Of a DNA stretch of 49,581 nt, positions 1-17,415 are shown piece after piece. Position numbers and translations under genes: made by a program. Every line of letters begins with the position of its first letter. The first letter of the stretch is position 1. Source of the DNA: an uncultured Lachnospiraceae bacterium (GTDB taxonomy: Bacteria > Bacillota > Clostridia > Lachnospirales > Lachnospiraceae); NCBI GenBank assembly GCA_947626435.1, contig CANQSB010000024.1, forward strand, positions 1 to 49,581, written 5' to 3'. Below the pieces are notes generated by a model that was not told where the DNA came from, made no database searches, and worked only from the letters and a program-made list of their open reading frames with translations.

Positions 1-474
1 TCATTATCAGCTATCAAGTATGCAAAGGTTAAACCTATCCGTGATGAGGACGGCGTAATCGTTGACTTTGAGACAACAGGCGACTTCCCTAAGTACGGCA
101 ACGATGATGACCGTGTAGACCTTATCGCTCAGGATATCGTTCACAGATTTATGACTGCTGTAAGAAGACATCATACCTACAGAAACGGTATTCCTACAAC
201 TTCTATCCTTACGATTACTTCAAACGTAACATACGGCAAGGCAACAGGCAACACACCTGATGGACGTAAGAAGGGACAGCCGTTTGCTCCCGGCGCTAAC
301 CCTATGCATGGCCGTGATACTCATGGCGCTGTAGCTTCATTGTCTTCAGTATCTAAGCTGCCGTTTAAGGATGCACAGGATGGTATCTCTAATACATTTA
401 CCATTATCCCTAACGCGCTTGGTAAGGAAGCTAAGGTCTTCTCTGGCGACATTGAAATTGATCTTAACAATTAA
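1..474 (+). CDS. pflB: Pyruvate formate-lyase, 3' end (partial; lacks glycyl-radical domain)
   Basis: The reading frame is open from base 1, so the 5' part, including the catalytic cysteine pair, lies outside the window. PFL converts pyruvate and CoA to acetyl-CoA and formate in the cytoplasm. The visible 157 residues match the last third of the PFL barrel: [34 protein letters not shown], and [16 protein letters not shown]. In ordinary PFL this is followed directly by the roughly 75-residue glycyl-radical domain. Here the protein instead ends 15 residues later with [12 protein letters not shown] and a TAA. The missing domain is encoded separately at 817. The ending looks purposeful rather than a random frameshift, because a diverged copy of the same tail and stop follows at 476-540. 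Identity is firm from family knowledge; the split architecture is seen directly. Confidence 0.95.
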
Positions 475-475
475 T

Positions 476-540
476 GTTATCTAACGCCGGAGAAGCCCTC
501 GGTCTTCTCTGGCGATATCGAGATTGACCTTAACAACTAA
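476..540 (+). pseudogene. Relic of a second PFL 3' end
   Basis: Forty bases ending at a TAA repeat the 3' end of the preceding PFL gene. They encode the same C-terminus ([12 protein letters not shown]) but differ almost only at third codon positions (GAC/GAT, ATT/ATC, GAA/GAG, GAT/GAC, AAT/AAC). The segment upstream (about 476-500) is a shortened, frame-broken match to the [12 protein letters not shown] region. Synonymous-only differences mean the copy diverged while coding, so it is best read as the tail of a paralogous PFL left by recombination between two pfl copies. It has no start codon and no function is proposed. Confidence 0.75.
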
Positions 541-569
541 TTTCTAACTGCGATTTTTGAGAGGAATAG

Positions 570-788
570 GTGCTGACTATGGACGAGAAATCTATGATTG
601 ACGACCTCGTGGCGCAGCTTGACGCGGGATTTTCCAAAGACAAGGCTGTAGGGCATTTCAATGTAGATGTTGACGAGGCGGCAAATTCTACAAAGGAAGT
701 AGAAACTCTTGGATGTACAGACTGTTCCAGAACTCCCTTAGCGTGCAGCGTACCTACGCTGCACCAGGGGTTAGACGATTATCAATAA
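570..788 (+). CDS. Small Cys-rich protein between PFL and its radical subunit
   Basis: A 72-residue protein (69 if the ATG at 579 is used). A GAGGA sequence sits just ahead of the GTG at 570, and the ATG at 579 is the alternative. I do not recognise a named family. The N-terminal half resembles the start of the neighbouring glycyl-radical protein: [14 protein letters not shown] beside [14 protein letters not shown], and [10 protein letters not shown] beside [10 protein letters not shown]. The C-terminal half is different: it carries [11 protein letters not shown], a C-x2-C-x6-C arrangement that could bind metal or form disulfides, and no RVSGYA radical loop. It sits 28 bases ahead of the radical subunit on the same strand, so co-transcription is likely. 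A role in assembling or protecting the split PFL is inference only. Confidence 0.7.
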
Positions 789-816
789 TATAAATTTTAT
801 TAGGAGGTATATTACT

Positions 817-1062
817 ATGGCAGACAACAATCAGACACAGGTTGACAACTTAGTATCATTATTAGACGGCTATGCTACAAAAGGCGGTCATCACCTTAAT
901 GTAAACGTGCTCAACAGAGAGACACTGCTTGACGCTCAGAAGCATCCCGAGAATTATCCTCAGCTTACAATCCGCGTTTCAGGCTACGCTGTAAACTTCA
1001 TCAAGCTTACACCTGAACAGCAGGCTGACGTTATCTCTCGTACATTCCATGAGCAGATTTAA
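817..1062 (+). CDS. grcA: Autonomous glycyl-radical subunit (PFL C-terminal domain)
   Basis: An 81-residue protein matching the PFL C-terminal domain from end to end: [19 protein letters not shown], then [15 protein letters not shown] with the radical glycine in RVSGYA (about residue 59), then [12 protein letters not shown] strong AGGAGG ribosome site ten bases upstream fixes the start. In E. coli the homologous YfiD/GrcA is a spare part that repairs oxygen-cleaved PFL, and there PFL keeps its own domain. Here the preceding PFL lacks that domain, so this protein is probably an essential subunit rather than a spare. The activase at 10904 would abstract hydrogen from its glycine. It is followed at once by a terminator. 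The gene symbol is given by domain similarity. Confidence 0.9.
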
Positions 1063-1079
1063 TTGGCTGAATAATAAAC

Positions 1080-1106
1080 AGGGGCTTGTCTAAAGCCCCT
1101 TTTTTA
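1080..1106 (+). terminator. Rho-independent terminator after the PFL subunit genes
   Basis: The stem AGGGGCTT/AAGCCCCT with a 5-base loop is followed by a T-rich run. It closes the pfl transcription unit 18 bases after the stop codon of the radical subunit. The T tract runs directly into the left edge of the first Rpn repeat unit. Confidence 0.85.
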
Positions 1107-2163
1107 TTTTAATCTTCTTTATAACCGTGTGCCAACGCCCATTTGCGGTATTTTTCTGCTTGTTCAAGCTGTTCAAGCGCCGCATCTTTCTGAGTCAATG
1201 CATCGGCAAGTCTAGCCTCTGACTCAGCAAGCCTAGCCTCTGACTCAGCAAGCCTCTCGGCATAATCTTCAAACTCTTCCCGCTCCCAGCAGCGTTTCTT
1301 AACTTCAAAGTCTGCACACAATTCATAGATTGTCTTAGATGCCTCGTTGATATAAACATCTTCTTTCGCCAACATTTTTACCGCCTCCCATGTCTTTGCT
1401 TTGAAAAGCTTCGCCCACTTGTCAATGCCGTATTTTTTGTCCTCATCTGTGGCAAGCTCTGTTTTATTTAAGTCTACCACACAGAGAGTAACGTTGTCAC
1501 TATAAATCTGCCCTGTTTTGACATTTGCGAGCTTATATGTGGCATAAAATTCAGGCTCTGCTCCTTCCAGTGAAAAATCAAGAAAGCCGATATGTATGAC
1601 AGGCTTGGCGTCTTTATACTTTCCGCCCCTGTTCAGGTTGTCGTAGGAACGGCATATATACGATACAGAGCGATTTCGCCAGTTGAACAGATTTGCAACC
1701 TGCATTTCAAGATTAATTATTATGAAATTATTGAGAATGACATTTACATCAAGCCACATCTGCTTTGAGTCAATCGACTCTCCCAGAATAATTGGGTTGG
1801 TAATCCTGACCTCCTTAATGTCATCCTCTGACAAATGCAGCAGTGCTTTGATAAGCCCGCGCAAAACGCGGTTGTTCTTCTGCAATACGGCACGGAACAT
1901 ATAATCGTTTGTCATATTGAAGGGAATTTCGCCTGTTGCTGTTTCATAGGTGACAGAGGCGCTTTCTTTTAAAGATATATTTTCTTTTGTCATTAAATAT
2001 GATATCCTTTCAAGTTTATTTTAGGCAAAATGTGCATTGAAAAACATAAAATGCACCTTCTTAATAAAAAAATGTCGCACAACATACGCACTATATCATA
2101 TTTAATTACATCTGTCCAATCGAAATGTAAAAATTCGTGTGAAATGTAAAAATTAATACAAAA
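1103..2163. repeat. Rpn repeat unit, left copy
   Basis: About 1.06 kb covering the first Rpn gene plus its roughly 170-base leader and promoter. The same unit occurs in the same orientation at about 9478-10542. Similarity starts at TTTAATCTTCTTTATAACCG and fades after AATGTAAAAATTAATACAAA. No terminal inverted repeats or target duplication were seen, so this looks like a duplicated gene unit rather than a classical insertion sequence. Confidence 0.8.
1109..1993 (-). CDS. Rpn-family PD-(D/E)XK nuclease (putative transposase), copy 1
   Basis: A 294-residue protein of the Rpn / PD-(D/E)XK nuclease-family transposase group. These are DNA endonucleases implicated in recombination and, in some members, phage defence. 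It opens with the typical FNMTNDYMF (residues 25-33). The catalytic core is visible as LDVNVIL (D82) and NLEMQ (E96, Q98), a D...E-x-Q arrangement. The last 60 residues are a charged coiled coil with an exact tandem repeat of AESEARL, ending in KYRKWALAHGYKED. The start lies about 11 bases after an AAAGGA ribosome site. The paralogue at 9484 is almost identical except for the number of C-terminal repeats. Both copies look intact. The neighbouring PFL genes are on the opposite strand. Confidence 0.88.
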   Translation of the reverse strand: MTKENISLKESASVTYETATGEIPFNMTNDYMFRAVLQKNNRVLRGLIKALLHLSEDDIKEVRITNPIILGESIDSKQMWLDVNVILNNFIIINLEMQVANLFNWRNRSVSYICRSYDNLNRGGKYKDAKPVIHIGFLDFSLEGAEPEFYATYKLANVKTGQIYSDNVTLCVVDLNKTELATDEDKKYGIDKWAKLFKAKTWEAVKMLAKEDVYINEASKTIYELCADFEVKKRCWEREEFEDYAERLAESEARLAESEARLADALTQKDAALEQLEQAEKYRKWALAHGYKED

Positions 2164-2165
2164 AG
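1994..2165 (-). promoter_or_regulatory. Promoter and structured leader of Rpn copy 1
   Basis: On the minus strand TTGGAC and TATAGT are separated by 18 bases, forming a plausible promoter about 120 bases upstream of the Rpn start. Just upstream are two direct repeats of TTTTTACATTTC, 20 bases apart. The transcribed leader contains a hairpin with GTGCATT/AATGCAC arms. All three features recur upstream of Rpn copy 2, where the hairpin arms differ in sequence but still pair. Regulation by this leader is inference. Confidence 0.55.
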
Positions 2166-2184
2166 CCCTTGGTTTTCCCAGGAC

Positions 2185-3492
2185 TTACTGCCCCCAATCA
2201 TATAGTTTCCAAGTACCGTCTGTTTCATCAAAGATAACCGTAAATCCCCATACCATTTCGCTTTCTTCTATTTCAAAAATTCCCTCTAAATGGATAATCT
2301 TTTTTTCCTGCAGCTGATGCTGCGCCCTATATTTGTTTTCATAATAATTGGATGTATTTGGAAAATAATCAATATAATGCAGGTCGTACTGCATATAAGT
2401 AAAATCCGCCGCATCGCTTAGCGGTCCTGATTCATAAATATGATTAAGTATATATTGTTTATCTCCTTTATTTGCTGCATTTACTATGTTAATAACAGTT
2501 TCTTCTGCCTGCTTTATTTCCCATTTGGTAAATCCGTTCATATCCGGCAGCAAATAGGCATTTGTAATCCATACTATAAACGCAATAATTGTTATGCTAA
2601 ACACAAAAGACATATGGACAGACTTTTTCAGGCTAATCCTGAAGTCAAAAATACGATTAACTCTTTTCATAACCTGTTCCCTGCTAAAGTTAAGGGAACC
2701 TTTAAGCCCGGATTGATATCCATTCACAGCCGCGTAATGTAATGCATATTCTTTAGGACTTACACTCGTATTCTTAATCACTTCATAGTCGCATCGGTAT
2801 TCCATATCCTCACGCAAAGCCTGCAGAAAAAATTTTTCATAATACGGAAGAAACCAATATATACAGCTTACTGCGTTAATTAATAATAACAGCAAATTAT
2901 GCCTTCTTATGATATGAACTTTTTCGTGATTCAAAATACTATTTAATATGTCACTTTCTGCCAATTCCTTTGGCACATAAATTACAGGGTGTATTCCATA
3001 CACCATGGGACCTATATCCTCTGTAATTACTACGTTAATACTTTTTTTACCTATCAAGATGAGTGAATGAATTCCTACGCATTTTTCTTTTATTTTTTTC
3101 CCAGTTCTTACAGCTATTAATATTTTTATAATGGCATTTACCAAGAAACCAATTGTCCATATAATCAGAGCAGCCGTGATAAATAAATTTTTGGCTGCGC
3201 TTTTACGCAATATACTTGAATTCCGCTGACTGCCCAGTATAGCTGCTAATTCAAAATATTCGTTTTGCCTGCTGTCCGATATACCCTTTACCCCGCTTAT
3301 GTAATTGATATCTCCAATAGCTGCTCCCGCTTCAGCAGTTAAATGCAACGGCAATAGCGAAATAATAAAAAAACCAATCCAATATACCGTCAATATTTGC
3401 GGATGTATTTTGTCCCCGTTGGTTTTGCGGACAAGCAGAATGATGCTGCCCATTATTGTAACTCCGACTATATTCCACAATGCCTCAGACAT
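2185..3492 (-). CDS. BlaR1-type M56 membrane metallopeptidase, copy 1
   Basis: A 435-residue membrane sensor-protease of the BlaR1/MecR1 (peptidase M56) family. The start at 3492 (MSEALWN) is chosen because GGAGG lies just upstream; an in-frame ATG 24 bases earlier has no ribosome site. Several hydrophobic segments flank a cytoplasmic zinc-protease region with HEKVH (about residues 189-193) and the family HPVIYVP segment. After the last membrane span is an outside tail of about 110 residues without the SxxK penicillin-binding domain of true BlaR1, so the signal is probably not a beta-lactam. In the family model, sensing activates the protease and leads to cleavage of the BlaI repressor, encoded just upstream at 3556. 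Confidence 0.88.
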   Translation of the reverse strand: MSEALWNIVGVTIMGSIILLVRKTNGDKIHPQILTVYWIGFFIISLLPLHLTAEAGAAIGDINYISGVKGISDSRQNEYFELAAILGSQRNSSILRKSAAKNLFITAALIIWTIGFLVNAIIKILIAVRTGKKIKEKCVGIHSLILIGKKSINVVITEDIGPMVYGIHPVIYVPKELAESDILNSILNHEKVHIIRRHNLLLLLINAVSCIYWFLPYYEKFFLQALREDMEYRCDYEVIKNTSVSPKEYALHYAAVNGYQSGLKGSLNFSREQVMKRVNRIFDFRISLKKSVHMSFVFSITIIAFIVWITNAYLLPDMNGFTKWEIKQAEETVINIVNAANKGDKQYILNHIYESGPLSDAADFTYMQYDLHYIDYFPNTSNYYENKYRAQHQLQEKKIIHLEGIFEIEESEMVWGFTVIFDETDGTWKLYDWGQ

Positions 3493-3555
3493 ATTAATCC
3501 TCCGTTGTTGCTGCACATGCGAATTCTTTACATTAAATCTAACTGCTCAAGTATT

Positions 3556-3927
3556 TTACTTATGATTTCTTATATAGTCCAATACACCTTCCAATTCTTC
3601 CAATGTGATTTTTTCATTTTCAGCAAAGCTCAATGCTGCTTGTTCCCAATGTCCATCATAAAACTTGTCAATCACTTCGCGTAATGCGTTTATTCCTCTT
3701 TTTCCCCTTGAATGGGTGGGCATAAAATACTGAACCTCTTTTTTAATTATTGTAACGTTCCCTTTTTTTACCAATCTGCTTACTAATGTTTTTATCGTAC
3801 TGTCTGCCCACTTTTTTTCTTTTTTTACCAGCTCTATGATTTGTTTCATAGTAATCGGATTCTTTTTTTCAAGAATCTCCAATATAACTTCTTCACTTTC
3901 CGTAATTGAATTATTTGCATTGCCCAT
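3556..3927 (-). CDS. BlaI/MecI/CopY-family repressor, copy 1
   Basis: A 123-residue winged-helix repressor. The N-terminal 75 residues fit the BlaI DNA-binding domain: ITESEEVILEILEKKNPITM, a recognition region around WADSTIKTLVSRLVKKG, then a beta wing. The remainder is the helical dimerisation part that the partner protease would cut. It sits 63 bases upstream of the M56 gene and is probably co-transcribed with it. Two TACA-N3-TGTA dyads overlap the promoter immediately upstream, which implies autoregulation. Whether the ABC operon upstream is also under its control is not shown: no matching dyad was seen ahead of that operon. Confidence 0.9.
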   Translation of the reverse strand: MGNANNSITESEEVILEILEKKNPITMKQIIELVKKEKKWADSTIKTLVSRLVKKGNVTIIKKEVQYFMPTHSRGKRGINALREVIDKFYDGHWEQAALSFAENEKITLEELEGVLDYIRNHK

Positions 3928-4046: not shown

Positions 4047-4916
4047 TCATTCTGCAAAATATAAATATACATCCTCCAAATTGGGGAGCACCTCGCGAAT
4101 TTCACCGACCTGAAGGCATTTGTCTGAAACTATCCGCATACATGTTTTATCCCCAACCAACATAATATTTGCAATTTTATATTCTGAATGTTCATAAAAT
4201 TTCTGCTCATCATGCCCAACCACTGCCTCAAATACCTTATGTTCAATCTCCTTCAAAAGTATATCAGAAGCATTCTTACGCACCAATAAGCCATCCTTTA
4301 AAATCAGTATTTCCTTTGATATATATTCTATATCGGATACCACGTGCGTTGCAATCAGTACAATTTTATCTTTTGATATTTCGCTGATAAAATTTCTTAT
4401 GCGTATTCGCTCTTTGGGATCAAGCCCTGCTGTCGGCTCATCCATTATCAATATCGGGGGACTATTCAATAATGCCTGCGCTATCAAAATGCGCTGTTTC
4501 ATTCCGCCCGAATATGACTTTAGCTTCTTATAGCGACTCTGCTTCAGGTTTACAATTTCAAGCGTCCAATCTATTGTTTCTTTTGCCTCTTTCCTTTTAA
4601 GTCCCTTCAGTGCTGCCATATACCATAAAAACTGCTCACCTGTAAAGTCATCATAAATTCCCTGCTGCTGCGGCATGTATCCAAGCATGCCACGGTATCT
4701 TGAACCCATATGGAATATGCTAAGACCATCAAGCGTAATTGTGCCGGCATCAGCTTTCAAATTGTCCGTAATAATATTCATCAGAGTACTTTTACCTGCC
4801 CCATTGGGTCCCAGAAGTCCATACACACCCGAAGTAAAATCAGCGCTAAAATCATTTAACGCATATGTTTTTCCGTTATTATAACTCTTTTTAATTCCAT
4901 TAAGTTTTAATACCAT
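4047..4916 (-). CDS. ABC transporter ATP-binding protein
   Basis: A 289-residue ATPase subunit of an ABC-2-type exporter. Walker A is GPNGAGKS (36-43), the signature is YSGGMKQR (135-142), and Walker B is ILIMDE (155-160) followed by PTAGLDP and the H-loop ATHV. The last 70 residues are a C-terminal extension of the kind seen in multidrug or antimicrobial-peptide exporters. It follows the large membrane protein at 4987 by 70 bases on the same strand, so the two probably form the transporter. Downstream are blaI and blaR. Substrate unknown. Confidence 0.93.
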   Translation of the reverse strand: MVLKLNGIKKSYNNGKTYALNDFSADFTSGVYGLLGPNGAGKSTLMNIITDNLKADAGTITLDGLSIFHMGSRYRGMLGYMPQQQGIYDDFTGEQFLWYMAALKGLKRKEAKETIDWTLEIVNLKQSRYKKLKSYSGGMKQRILIAQALLNSPPILIMDEPTAGLDPKERIRIRNFISEISKDKIVLIATHVVSDIEYISKEILILKDGLLVRKNASDILLKEIEHKVFEAVVGHDEQKFYEHSEYKIANIMLVGDKTCMRIVSDKCLQVGEIREVLPNLEDVYLYFAE

Positions 4917-9483: not shown

Positions 9484-10368
9484 TTAATCTTCTTTATAAC
9501 CGTGGGCTATTGCCCATTCGCGGTATTTTTCCGCCTGTTCAAGTGCCGCGTCTGCAGCATCCCTCTGTGCAAATGCAGCATCTCTCTGCGCCAGTGCATC
9601 CGCAAGCCTAGCCTCTGATTGGGCAAGCCTCTCGGCATAGTCCTCAAATTCCTCCCGCTCACAACACCGTTTCTTAACCTCAAGGTCTGCACAAAGCTCA
9701 AAAATTGTCTTAGACGCATCTTTGATATAAGCATCTTCCTCCGCCAACATTTTTACCGCCTCCCATGTCCGTGCTTTGAAAAACTTCGCCCATTTGTCAA
9801 TGCCATATTTTTTGTCTTCATCTGTGGCAAGCTCTGTTTTATTTAAGTCTACCACACATAAGGTAACATTGTCACTATAAACTTGCCCTGTTTTTATATT
9901 TGCAAGCTTATATGTCGCATAAAACTCAGGCACCACTCCTTCCAATGAAAAATCAAGAAATCCAATATGTATGACAGGCTTGGCATCTTTATACTTGCCA
10001 CCTCTGTTCAAACTGTCATAGGAACGGCACATATACGATACAGAGCGGTTCCGCCAGTCGAACAGATTTGCAATCTGCATTTCAAGGTTAATGATTATGA
10101 AATTATTAAGAATAACATTTACATCAAGCCACATCTGCTTTGAGTCAACCGATTCTCCCAGAATAATAGGGTTGGTAATCCTGACCTCCTTAATGTCATC
10201 CTCTGACAAATGCAGCAGCGCTTTGATAAGCCCGCGCAAGACACGGTTGTTCTTCTGCAACACAGCGCGGAACATATAGTCGTTTGTCATATTAAAGGGA
10301 ATTTCGCCCGTTGCCGTTTCATACGCAACAGAAATAGTTTCTTTTGCATGTAAATTTTCTTTTGCCAT
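9484..10368 (-). CDS. Rpn-family PD-(D/E)XK nuclease (putative transposase), copy 2
   Basis: A close paralogue of the gene at 1109: same FNMTNDYMF opening, LDVNVIL and NLEMQ catalytic core, and HGYKED end. The start at 10368 (MAKENLHAKE) corresponds to the start of copy 1; the longer frame upstream runs through the leader hairpin and has no counterpart there. The C-terminal coiled coil differs in repeat make-up: one AQSEARL unit followed by AQRDAAF and AQRDAAD, against tandem AESEARL in copy 1. No disabling mutation is visible. The gene could act in trans on its own repeat partner, but that is speculation. Confidence 0.87.
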   Translation of the reverse strand: MAKENLHAKETISVAYETATGEIPFNMTNDYMFRAVLQKNNRVLRGLIKALLHLSEDDIKEVRITNPIILGESVDSKQMWLDVNVILNNFIIINLEMQIANLFDWRNRSVSYMCRSYDSLNRGGKYKDAKPVIHIGFLDFSLEGVVPEFYATYKLANIKTGQVYSDNVTLCVVDLNKTELATDEDKKYGIDKWAKFFKARTWEAVKMLAEEDAYIKDASKTIFELCADLEVKKRCCEREEFEDYAERLAQSEARLADALAQRDAAFAQRDAADAALEQAEKYREWAIAHGYKED

Positions 10369-10542
10369 TAAATATGATATCCTTTCGAGTTTATTTAGAC
10401 AGAAAGTGCATTTTAAAGACAAAAAACACACTTTCTTAGTCCGAAGATGTCACACAACATACGCACTATACCATATTTAATTGACTCCTGTCCAATCGAA
10501 ATGTAAAAATTCGCTTGAAATGTAAAAATTAATACAAAAAAT
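10369..10542 (-). promoter_or_regulatory. Promoter and structured leader of Rpn copy 2
   Basis: This matches the leader of copy 1: TTGGAC and TATAGT with 19 bases between, two upstream TTTTTACATTTC-type repeats, and a leader hairpin. Here the hairpin arms are AGAAAGTGTGTTTT and AAAATGCACTTTCT, which pair using G-U wobbles. Base changes relative to copy 1 largely keep pairing, which hints that the hairpin matters. Confidence 0.5.
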
Positions 10543-10903: not shown

Positions 10904-11665
10904 ATGAAGGGAAGAATACACTCACTTGAATCATTTGGCACGGTTGACGGACCAGGCGTGCGTTATGTCGTCTTTGTGCAGGGCTGCCCTATGAGATGCG
11001 CCTACTGTCACAATCCCGACACTTGGGAGATGAACGCGGGTACTCTTATGGAGCCTGCGGAAATTCTTGAAAATTACGAGAGAAACAAGCCCTTTTACAA
11101 GGGCGGTGGCATCACGGTAACAGGCGGCGAGCCGCTCATGCAGATTGACTTTCTGCTTGAGCTTTTCACCATGGCAAAAGAACGCGGCATCCACACCTGC
11201 ATTGACAGCTCAGGCATCGCCTATAAGCCAAACGCCAACCCCGAATGGCTTGCAAAGCTTGACAAGCTCTGCGCCGTCACCGATTTGGTTATGCTCGACA
11301 TCAAGCACATCGATCCCGAAAAGCACAAGGAGCTTGTAAAGCAGCCAAATGACGGCATACTCGCGTTTGCAGAATATCTTGACAAAATGCACGTTGACAT
11401 ATGGATACGCCACGTCGTAGTCCCAGGCATCACGGACAATCCCGAAGACCTGCACAAGCTCGGTTACTTCATCGGCGGACTAAGCAACCTAAAGGCTCTC
11501 GACGTCCTCCCATACCACACCATGGGCAAAAAGAAATACGACGAGCTAGGCATACCATACCGTCTCGAAGGCGTACCCGAAATGGACAAAAGCCGCGTAC
11601 CCGAACTGAAAAAACATATCCTCAACGGTATCAAAGAACGCCGCGGCATACCCTATACAGAATAA
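10904..11665 (+). CDS. pflA: Pyruvate formate-lyase activating enzyme (radical SAM)
   Basis: A 253-residue radical SAM enzyme that uses a [4Fe-4S] cluster and S-adenosylmethionine to create the glycyl radical on PFL. The cluster motif is CPMRCAYC (C28, C32, C35) after GPGVRYVVFVQGC. GGITVTGGEP is the family GGE motif, and DIKHIDPEKHKEL is typical of PflA. The length is normal and AAAGG precedes the start. In many Firmicutes pflA lies directly after pflB; here about 9.8 kb of Rpn and BlaRI/ABC material separates them. Its substrate here is presumably the separate radical subunit at 817. Its last quarter is noticeably cytosine-rich at third codon positions. Confidence 0.97.
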   Translation: MKGRIHSLESFGTVDGPGVRYVVFVQGCPMRCAYCHNPDTWEMNAGTLMEPAEILENYERNKPFYKGGGITVTGGEPLMQIDFLLELFTMAKERGIHTCIDSSGIAYKPNANPEWLAKLDKLCAVTDLVMLDIKHIDPEKHKELVKQPNDGILAFAEYLDKMHVDIWIRHVVVPGITDNPEDLHKLGYFIGGLSNLKALDVLPYHTMGKKKYDELGIPYRLEGVPEMDKSRVPELKKHILNGIKERRGIPYTE

Positions 11666-15373: not shown

Positions 15374-17415
15374 TATATTGCCCCTTCCTCAAGCATCTGG
15401 TTTAATGTGGTCTTGATTATATTGATTGCGCGCTCGGGCGAAGTGTCCGCAAGCTGCGCGCCTGCGATATTCATATGGCCGCCGCCGCCAAGACGCTCCA
15501 TTATTACCTGTACGTTTACCTCGTCAATCGACCTCGCCGAAATATATGATTTTCCATTGTAATCCGTAACTACAAAGCTTGCCTTTATGCCATTCATATT
15601 TAGCAGCTCGTTTGCCGCCTGCGCGCCTATCTCCGTGGGGCTTTCAAGCCCATCTGCAGGACATATGCCCATTGCGTAGGCGTTTTTGTAAATCTCGGCG
15701 TTCCTTACCGCCTCCGCCTTTGCCTTGTACTCATTGGCGTCATCTCTGAACATCTTGCGCACGCGCGTCACGTCCGCGCCGCAGCGCCGCAGAAACGCCG
15801 CAGCCTCAAAGGTTCTGACGCCTGTTTTTGCCGTGAAATTGTTTGTATCAATCATAATGCCCGAATACATACAGTCGGCCTCATTATTTCTGACCTTTAC
15901 AGTGCCGGCTATATACTGCAGTATCTCCGCCACCATCTCACAGGTGCTTGACGCATACGGCTCTACATATGAGAGCGTCGCATTTTCGATTATTTCCGAA
16001 CTCTGCCTGTGGTGGTCTAGCACCACAACTGTCTTGCAGCCCCTGATAAGCTCAGGGCACTCCGTGATGCTTGGCTTATTTACGTCTACAACCACAAGCA
16101 CCGTATTGCTGCCCGCAAGCTCCTGCGCCTCGGCAGTACTTATGATAAAATCCTCCTCGTACACATTCCTGTCCCTGAAAAGCTCGACTAGCGGCTTGAC
16201 AGAATTTGTGATGTTGTCTATAACTATATGCGGTTTCCTTTCAAGCGCCCTCGCTATGCAGCTCACGCCCACCGCCGCGCCAAACGCGTCGGCATCAGCA
16301 AGCCTGTGCCCCATAATAAGCACCCTGTCTTTGCTTGTAATTATCTCCTGCAGCGCGTTTGCTTTGACTCTCGCCTTTACGCGCGTGTTCTTTTCCACCT
16401 GCTGGCTCTTGCCGCCGTAATATGCTATCGAATCGGGCGTCTTGATAACAGCCTGGTCGCCACCCCGCCCGAGCGCAATGTCAATCGCGTTTCTTGCGTA
16501 CTCCATGCACTGGTTGTATGTCGGCGCGTCAAGCCCCACGCCTATGCTGACCGTGAGCGCCATCTCATTGCCGATGTTTACGGTCTTTACGTCTTCAAGC
16601 AGGTCAAAGCGCGCCTCCTTTATCGCAAGCAGCGACTTTTTACGCATAATCACAAGATACTTGTCCTTTTCCGTCTTCCTCACTATGCCGTCAAGCGATG
16701 AAATATACTTGTTTATTTTCCTGTCTATCAGCGCTATCAGAAGCGAGCGGCGCACCTCCTCGACGCTTTCAAGCGCCTCGTCATAGTTGTCAATGTAAAT
16801 CAGTCCCATGGCAAGGCTCTGGTCGTCAATCTCGCCCAGTGCTTTTTTAAGGTCGGTCTCATCAAAGAGGTAGCCCGCAATCAGCAAATTGCCGCCATCG
16901 CTGTCCAATACCTCGCTGCTCTCCAGCACCTCATCTATCGAAATTTTTTTCAGTCTGAAAAGATAGTCATGCTCCTCAAAGGAAACCTCCATCTCCGTCT
17001 GCTGCTCAAACTCCAGCTTATCCCTTGTAATATACGGGAAAATTGACGTTATAGACTTGCGGTAGCCCTTTTCCTTGTGAGTTATCTTCTCAAACGCAAT
17101 GTTTGTCCATATAATCCTGCCGTTTTCGTCCATGAGCACATGCGGAAGCTCCAAATCCCTCAAAAGCCTGCGCTGTATCTGCCCATACTGAGTGGCAAAG
17201 CTTATAAATTCATTTAATATAAGCGGCTTGTTGTGGTTCAGGAGGGCAAGCATCACTATAAGGTAAAGCGCAAGAAACGCCGTGACGCACAGTCCCGCTG
17301 TTATATCCAGAAAATATATTCCCACATTGACAACCGCCAATATAAATCCTAATATCAAGGTAGCCTGAAGGTAAGACCTCAAATGCCCCTTGAGCCTAAT
17401 CCTTTTTTGCTTCAT
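15373..17415 (-). CDS. gdpP: Cyclic-di-AMP phosphodiesterase, DHH/DHHA1 family
   Basis: A membrane phosphodiesterase that hydrolyses c-di-AMP to pApA. The start at 17415 (MKQKRIRLKG) follows GAGGGG; the longer start at 17427 overlaps that ribosome site. The order is two membrane spans (residues about 15-60), a PAS-like domain, a degenerate GGDEF domain ending in GRGGDQA, then DHH (GHRLADADAFGAA, VVVDVNKP, LDHHRQS) and DHHA1 with GGGGHMNIAGAQL. The 680-residue length is normal. The gdpP-rplI-dnaB order is typical of Firmicutes and supports the assignment. Confidence 0.95.
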   Translation of the reverse strand: MKQKRIRLKGHLRSYLQATLILGFILAVVNVGIYFLDITAGLCVTAFLALYLIVMLALLNHNKPLILNEFISFATQYGQIQRRLLRDLELPHVLMDENGRIIWTNIAFEKITHKEKGYRKSITSIFPYITRDKLEFEQQTEMEVSFEEHDYLFRLKKISIDEVLESSEVLDSDGGNLLIAGYLFDETDLKKALGEIDDQSLAMGLIYIDNYDEALESVEEVRRSLLIALIDRKINKYISSLDGIVRKTEKDKYLVIMRKKSLLAIKEARFDLLEDVKTVNIGNEMALTVSIGVGLDAPTYNQCMEYARNAIDIALGRGGDQAVIKTPDSIAYYGGKSQQVEKNTRVKARVKANALQEIITSKDRVLIMGHRLADADAFGAAVGVSCIARALERKPHIVIDNITNSVKPLVELFRDRNVYEEDFIISTAEAQELAGSNTVLVVVDVNKPSITECPELIRGCKTVVVLDHHRQSSEIIENATLSYVEPYASSTCEMVAEILQYIAGTVKVRNNEADCMYSGIMIDTNNFTAKTGVRTFEAAAFLRRCGADVTRVRKMFRDDANEYKAKAEAVRNAEIYKNAYAMGICPADGLESPTEIGAQAANELLNMNGIKASFVVTDYNGKSYISARSIDEVNVQVIMERLGGGGHMNIAGAQLADTSPERAINIIKTTLNQMLEEGAI

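Follow-up and report, generated by a model that had tools for sequence, protein, structure and literature searches.

Organization of the locus

The window, i.e., the whole stretch of 49,581 nucleotides analyzed here (contig CANQSB010000024.1), began at a contig break within pflB, the gene coding for pyruvate formate-lyase (PFL), and carried the 3' part of this gene followed by two small genes on the same strand (Table 1). The 5' part of pflB, with its start codon at 16708, was located on contig C47; the end of this contig overlapped the window by exactly 77 bases. An earlier note on this DNA had described a PFL that stops before its glycyl-radical domain, and a radical domain encoded further on as a separate 81-residue protein with its own ribosome-binding site. 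Both features were recovered, the radical-subunit reading frame beginning 342 bases past the pflB stop, and a third gene, absent from the earlier note, was found between them (hereafter the middle gene, encoding the middle protein). The terminator scan returned 2 sites against 0.5 expected, both corresponding to the two strands of the single hairpin behind the three-gene unit. The PFL activating enzyme was encoded in the window as well, about 10 kb downstream of the split-PFL genes, with an activase family match above cut-off.

Table 1. Features of the split-PFL locus in the window (contig CANQSB010000024.1)
Feature	Position	Strand	Remarks
pflB 3' part, split-PFL catalytic subunit, 157 aa	1..474	+	stop TAA 472-474 precedes glycyl-radical domain
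Decayed tandem repeat of pflB 3' end, including TAA	502..540	+	34/39 bases identical to 436-474
Middle protein gene, 69 aa	579..788	+	outside any named family
AGGAGG, likely ribosome-binding site for the radical subunit	802..807	+	
Radical subunit GrcA3, 81 aa, RVSGYAV	817..1062	+	NF038360 162.1 bits, cut-off 158
Intrinsic terminator-like hairpin 3' of the three-gene unit	1080..1110	+	8-pair stem 1080-1100, T-rich tail
pflA, PFL activating enzyme (radical SAM)	10904..11665	+	TIGR02493 299.3 bits, cut-off 231.75

Other genes were observed around the unit. Just upstream of pflB, the opposite strand encoded a small cysteine-containing DUF1858 protein (L036:3132-3326, contig C47). The window also contained two transposase genes of the PD-(D/E)XK nuclease family (PDDEXK_2; 1109-1993 and 9484-10431), a BlaR1-type peptidase M56 gene with a penicillinase-repressor-type gene (2185-3516 and 3556-3927), and, after these two, an ABC transporter ATPase gene (4047-4916). 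A longer version of the pflB 3'-end repeat, with more than one extra copy, was seen between pflB and the middle gene at locus L086.

A truncated catalytic chain

The window part of pflB matched the PFL-like family, and its Gly_radical match was confined to model positions 1-50 of 106, positions 49-106 being covered by the separate 81-aa reading frame; the glycyl-radical domain, which a PFL carries on the same chain, was here a separate protein. A close relative with pflB on one contig (L085) represented the catalytic chain in comparisons. The L085 chain matched TIGR01255 with 1101.7 bits (cut-off 994.2) over model positions 2-665 of 744, and E. coli PFL could be tiled over residues 10-680 by this chain and over residues 678-757 by the small protein of the window, almost without overlap. 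Aligned with the E. coli enzyme, the L085 chain ended at the equivalent of residue 680, with a short new tail added. The split chain thus has in common with E. coli PflB an above-cut-off family match and the catalytic Cys-Cys pair (residues 406-407 in the window's own pflB, C418-C419 in E. coli), and differs from it in ending before the radical domain that the E. coli chain includes. The ACCVS motif was intact in all 78 distinct split chains of at least 640 aa.

The radical subunit

The small protein displayed the RVSGYAV motif, with a glycine equivalent to the PFL radical site, and was assigned to NF038360 (GrcA3), for which the second copy in the same genome scored 161.7 bits and four relatives 160.8 to 171.5 bits. 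It fell short of TIGR04365 (GrcA), with 101.8 bits against a cut-off of 170. E. coli GrcA/YfiD (PDB 6owr) is likewise a stand-alone radical domain with RVSGYAV, and 61 residues of the window subunit aligned to YfiD residues 66-126. The window subunit differs in having no counterpart of the disordered N-terminal half of YfiD, as described in the accessible text of PMC8683613, and in being encoded next to a catalytic chain devoid of a radical domain of its own. GrcA3, compared by name and score, is the window subunit itself; its name implies a spare, whereas here no other radical domain was found for the enzyme, the subunit itself being encoded by two genes.

The second gene was located on contig C8 (L035:1675-1920), downstream of a Crp/Fnr-type regulator. 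Such a neighbor was present at 15 of the 16 solo radical-subunit loci examined in the genus (L218, a linked copy, left out) and at none of four outside the genus. A separate set of 92 stand-alone radical subunits was chosen by motif. This arrangement would fit a replacement supply after oxygen damage.

The spare-part function of E. coli GrcA needs a full-length PFL in the same cell, and the search of the window's own genome (95.8% complete, 98 contigs) yielded no PFL-like gene besides the split one. That the small protein is an E. coli-type spare, with a full-length PFL elsewhere as the main enzyme, is therefore most improbable, despite the NCBIfam name (autonomous glycyl radical cofactor) and despite one genome (G763) in which a split and a full-length PFL occurred together: the split chain was conserved with its stop and its short new tail. 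The claim of the earlier note that the radical domain is a subunit and not a spare was upheld in that the truncation was kept across genera and families with the Cys-Cys pair intact. Current database naming conceals what is probably an essential subunit of the enzyme, the radical piece.

Conservation of the split

With the middle-protein profile, begun in one genus, 58 loci were detected in named genome records, including Kineothrix alysoides, the Lachnospiraceae isolates A4, COE1 and 28-4, and metagenome-assembled genomes labelled Eisenbergiella, Acetatifactor and Roseburia. Gene order was uniform, with a truncated pflB upstream at 57 of the 58 loci and the radical subunit downstream at all 58; the contig of the single exception started too late to include pflB. 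The survey of relatives suggested in the earlier note thus gave the same truncated PFL at 57 of 58 named loci. Relative to pflB (frames 0/1/2), the middle gene was distributed 17/13/25 and the radical subunit 25/19/11 among the 55 loci at which all three genes were long enough to score. The small genes occupied all three frames, which indicates separate genes and argues against read-through, recoding or sequencing error. The contig break at the window start and the repeated pflB end would be expected of an assembly error, pseudogene or programmed recoding, an explanation left with next to no probability by the near-universal truncation, the free choice of frame and the intact catalytic motif; sequencing error, decay of pflB and read-through were ruled out on conservation and free frames.

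Within the order, the middle gene was found in 60 of 392 sampled genomes, from 24 of 173 genera and four family codes, and a split PFL was present in all 40 of these 60 genomes that were tested. Among 20 same-family genomes listed without the middle gene, all had a Gly_radical match and a split was seen only in G641. Fifteen further relatives of the order, not separately searched for the middle gene, gave a Gly_radical match in 10 cases and a split in none. Across the phylum, sampled evenly with 398 genomes, GrcA3 matched above cut-off in the window's own genome (G000) and in G260; a PFL C-terminal query matched 204 genomes of this sample, and of 28 PFL ends inspected from these matches, two were split (G000 and G260) and 26 continued into the domain.

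In the window's genus, the truncated PFL end was present in 21 of 24 genomes (all except G002, G005 and G008). Two genomes of the genus (G011 and G014) had an extra full-length glycyl radical enzyme of another kind, 34% identical to the split chain over 122 residues and 22% over 472 residues. Taken together, the comparisons support the central claim of a naturally split PFL at this locus.

The middle protein

In the window, the N-terminal half of the middle protein resembled the helix and beta10 strand of the radical domain (containing GHFNV), and its C-terminal tail read GCTDC-x5-ACSVPT. The best-kept positions among 96 distinct middle proteins were the start helix (I-D-D-L/I-V...LD), G-H-x-N-V/I and the tail C-x5-A-C-x-V-P-T. 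Tail cysteines were spaced as Cx6C in 90 of these proteins and as Cx5C in 6. The patterns that selected the 96-sequence alignment and the 115-locus survey described below include cysteines, and cysteine conservation is in part by construction; the loci found by profile, independently of cysteine patterns, had the cysteine pair in those inspected. Six of 116 loci (L178, L189, L198-L201) yielded no middle gene for the alignment.

Comparison of the N-terminal half (hereafter the anchor) with the radical subunit by hhalign gave an E-value of 5.6e-6 and a score of 31.8, the best of 40 column-shuffled controls reaching 13.6. Several middle proteins also matched the radical subunit directly by BLAST, and one of 11 scanned matched NF038360 at 4.4e-4. 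On these alignments, the N-half of the middle protein and the docking part of the radical domain (helix and beta10 strand) are homologous. The homology was limited to this half: the radical loop SGYA occurred in none of the 96 distinct middle proteins, which do not qualify as Gly_radical domains. Apart from the GrcA3 match at 4.4e-4, Pfam and NCBIfam gave weak matches and no model covering the middle protein, and the middle-protein profile had no sequence match in the PDB at E-values up to 10.

Phages, plasmids and viruses were considered as a source of the middle protein and rejected, the protein being unmatched in phage and plasmid collections and none being confirmed in viral contigs. In one genome (G729) the middle gene had a stop and looked like a pseudogene, yet it ended in GCTDCAK and might be functional as a short form. 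Middle genes of genus g314 lay away from pflB, the L184 copy beside a gene for a YitT-family membrane protein; the neighbor of the L188 middle gene appeared, by eye, similar to this YitT-family gene.

Cysteine tails of split enzymes

The survey comprised 115 distinct split loci. A middle gene was linked to pflB at 100 of them; 12 lacked one and had two or more cysteines in the pflB tail instead; at the remaining 3 (genus g314), pflA separated pflB from the radical subunit, and the middle gene was found at another place in the genome. None of the 100 loci with a linked middle gene had a cysteine in the PFL tail. Catalytic chains with a grafted C-terminal cysteine pair were those of L261-L263, L201 and L239-L246 (GCAEC, ECGNQAC, ECPTC and variants), with cysteines spaced as CxxC or Cx4C. 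In genus g293 the grafted tails read ...ECGNQACNIPNIMESIDNE or ...ECPTCADIPNIMDSIDNE, with close variants, and in genus g288 ...GCAEC. The g293 tail was present in nine of ten genomes, the tenth giving no match.

Whole-genome searches for the middle gene, in assemblies some of which were incomplete (65-100%), found none, either in the tail-bearing genomes (nine of g293, three of g288) or in the five g288 genomes with a re-fused PFL; two weak matches (E 0.07 and 0.09) fell where the radical-subunit gene begins, just past the pflB match. The full-length, re-fused PFLs (L210 and L264-L267) had neither a middle gene nor a cysteine-pair tail, their last 110 residues containing one cysteine in L210 and none in the other four. 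By comparison of these loci, a cysteine tail was shown to accompany the split and to be missing after re-fusion. Since the lineages without the anchor kept the cysteines on the catalytic chain, the cysteine tail and not the anchor is, from these alignments, the part always retained in the split PFLs of the sample.

History of the split

The tree of catalytic chains was built on 97 rows and 423 columns; near-identical split rows were dropped from the trees, and further redundant rows from this one. All 62 split rows and the five re-fused rows fell in one clade (support 100/98), and the five re-fused g288 rows formed one clade of their own (100/100). A clade of split rows only was rejected (p-AU 0.0016), this group having been named after the tree was seen. 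According to this topology, the split had a single origin within the sampled tree. Most simply read, the tree would have the cysteine tail moving to the catalytic chain twice (in g293 and in g288) and the radical domain being re-fused once, in g288, where the middle gene and the cysteine pair are gone. The radical domain of the re-fused enzyme in G541 was closest to the stand-alone domain of its tree neighbor L206 (87%). Split, tail-fused and re-fused enzymes would thus stand as natural replicates, with a cysteine tail wherever the enzyme is split and none after re-fusion.

Related structures and published systems

Among PDB sequences, the split catalytic chain was matched best by 38la and 38lb ("Formate acetyltransferase"). 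The 38la chain stopped where the split lies, perhaps as a cut construct; 38lb, which lies outside the sample, had a tail reading ...ALGKSGNVMFGECDMCEMKELD with the cysteine pair CDMC and 36 residues beyond the visible stretch. Neither entry matched in the radical-domain search, and no chain like the radical subunit or the middle protein was found in them. Given the NCBIfam name GrcA3 and these two entries without a radical domain, the split may be known to others, possibly to a structural group.

A description of the split PFL or of GrcA3 was not found in the literature searched, which includes few subscription journals, nor in the accessible portions of PMC11528403, PMC8683613, PMC13252398, PMC12590467 and PMC5704485. 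The same literature yielded no description of the middle protein or of the association of cysteine tails with the split, and both are apparently undescribed.

AlphaFold2 models computed from 25-row alignments had a mean pLDDT of 47.2 for the catalytic chain with the middle protein and of 38.2 when the radical subunit was added, values too low for docking to be read from either. In a structure comparison with the first of these models, PFL-type enzymes dominated over residues 34-644, and 38la and 38lb were not among the 50 matches listed.

Proposed role of the middle protein

The earlier note had envisaged a two- or three-component enzyme, and the comparative evidence favors three. A three-part PFL, in which a cysteine arm acts on the catalytic chain as long as the radical subunit is detached, is considered probable, if only just. 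The inferred complex, docking place and thiol chemistry would be as follows. The 679-aa catalytic chain holds the Cys-Cys active site, and PflA would make the radical on the glycine of the 81-aa subunit, which would supply a helix, the beta10 strand and the radical loop to the barrel. When the radical subunit leaves, for activation or after oxygen damage, the barrel would be open and the catalytic cysteines exposed. The anchor of the middle protein would then seat on the catalytic chain, probably in the groove vacated by the radical subunit, and the cysteine arm would reach the active-site cysteines and keep them reduced and guarded, like the C-terminal cysteine arm of ribonucleotide reductases. 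Two points weigh against this proposal. PFL turnover is redox-neutral, and a reductant is consequently unneeded at each turnover, which would leave the arm a role in repair or guarding only; and the spacing of the cysteines differs among middle proteins and grafted tails.

In ribonucleotide reductases, according to the available part of PMC5704485, a C-terminal cysteine pair delivers electrons to the active site. The grafted tails of split PFLs are also C-terminal cysteine pairs, a likeness that is analogy only. A stronger form, in which the detachable radical domain requires the dithiol arm throughout the lineage and this arm, borne by a radical-domain mimic or by the catalytic chain, swings into the vacated barrel to reduce or cap the Cys-Cys pair each time the radical subunit leaves, is put forward tentatively and is the less probable of the two; if true, the arm would be a new kind of maintenance subunit for a radical enzyme, convergent with that of ribonucleotide reductase.

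The middle protein could instead be a placeholder or decoy that plugs the groove and holds the catalytic chain stable and off until displaced by the radical subunit, the cysteines then being of little weight or serving stability only. The resemblance of its N-half to the docking half of the radical domain and the lack of a radical loop in all 96 proteins would agree with such a role, which is nevertheless rather unlikely, as the two lineages without the helix/beta10 anchor keep the cysteine pair on the catalytic chain.

Alternatively, the middle protein might help in assembly or activation by bringing the radical subunit or PflA onto the catalytic chain. In the accessible text of PMC8683613, binding of YfiD to E. 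coli PFL cut at residue 695 was undetectable by ITC, and both the N-half of YfiD and PFL residues 696-733 were needed for binding. A truncated chain with a free radical domain is thus not automatically functional, and an assembly role of the middle protein remains a serious rival on account of these binding needs: recognition elements of this sort are those reported in E. coli, in that same portion of PMC8683613, and the anchor resembles part of the 696-733 stretch. Against it, the tail-fused lineages have lost the anchor and kept the cysteine tail; such a role is about as improbable as that of a placeholder.

A metal or iron-sulfur subunit, as in benzylsuccinate synthase, is very unlikely. 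Two cysteines are too few for a [4Fe-4S] cluster unless it is shared, and among the 100 linked middle reading frames 19 had only two cysteines (65 had three, 13 four and 3 five), as had the grafted GCAEC tail. The accessory subunits of benzylsuccinate synthase are likewise small partners of a glycyl radical enzyme, and small accessory subunits with [4Fe-4S] clusters are described for another glycyl radical enzyme in the accessible part of PMC12590467. In contrast to the benzylsuccinate synthase type, for which four cluster-binding cysteines and a family match would be expected, the middle protein matched no small-subunit model of Pfam or NCBIfam.

PFL has a key place in the pyruvate metabolism of fermenting anaerobes and serves as a model for the killing of radical enzymes by oxygen. 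With the oxygen-fragile part as a separate subunit, the split enzyme would offer a direct system for radical-domain exchange, activation by PflA and recovery from oxygen, recovery in E. coli having been studied on damaged protein. The middle protein adds a small conserved subunit, without a family name, from a common gut lineage, and what the cysteine arm does could be tested by simple swaps between the split, tail-fused and re-fused forms found in nature.

Another glycyl radical enzyme with a possibly separate domain

At locus L204 (genome G240; 473-3120), another glycyl radical enzyme, 26% identical to the split PFL, also seemed split. Its 765-aa chain covered Gly_radical positions 2-47, and the next reading frame, of 106 aa and in another frame, covered positions 42-106. 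This case could be a frameshift; if real, it would represent a second, independent split.
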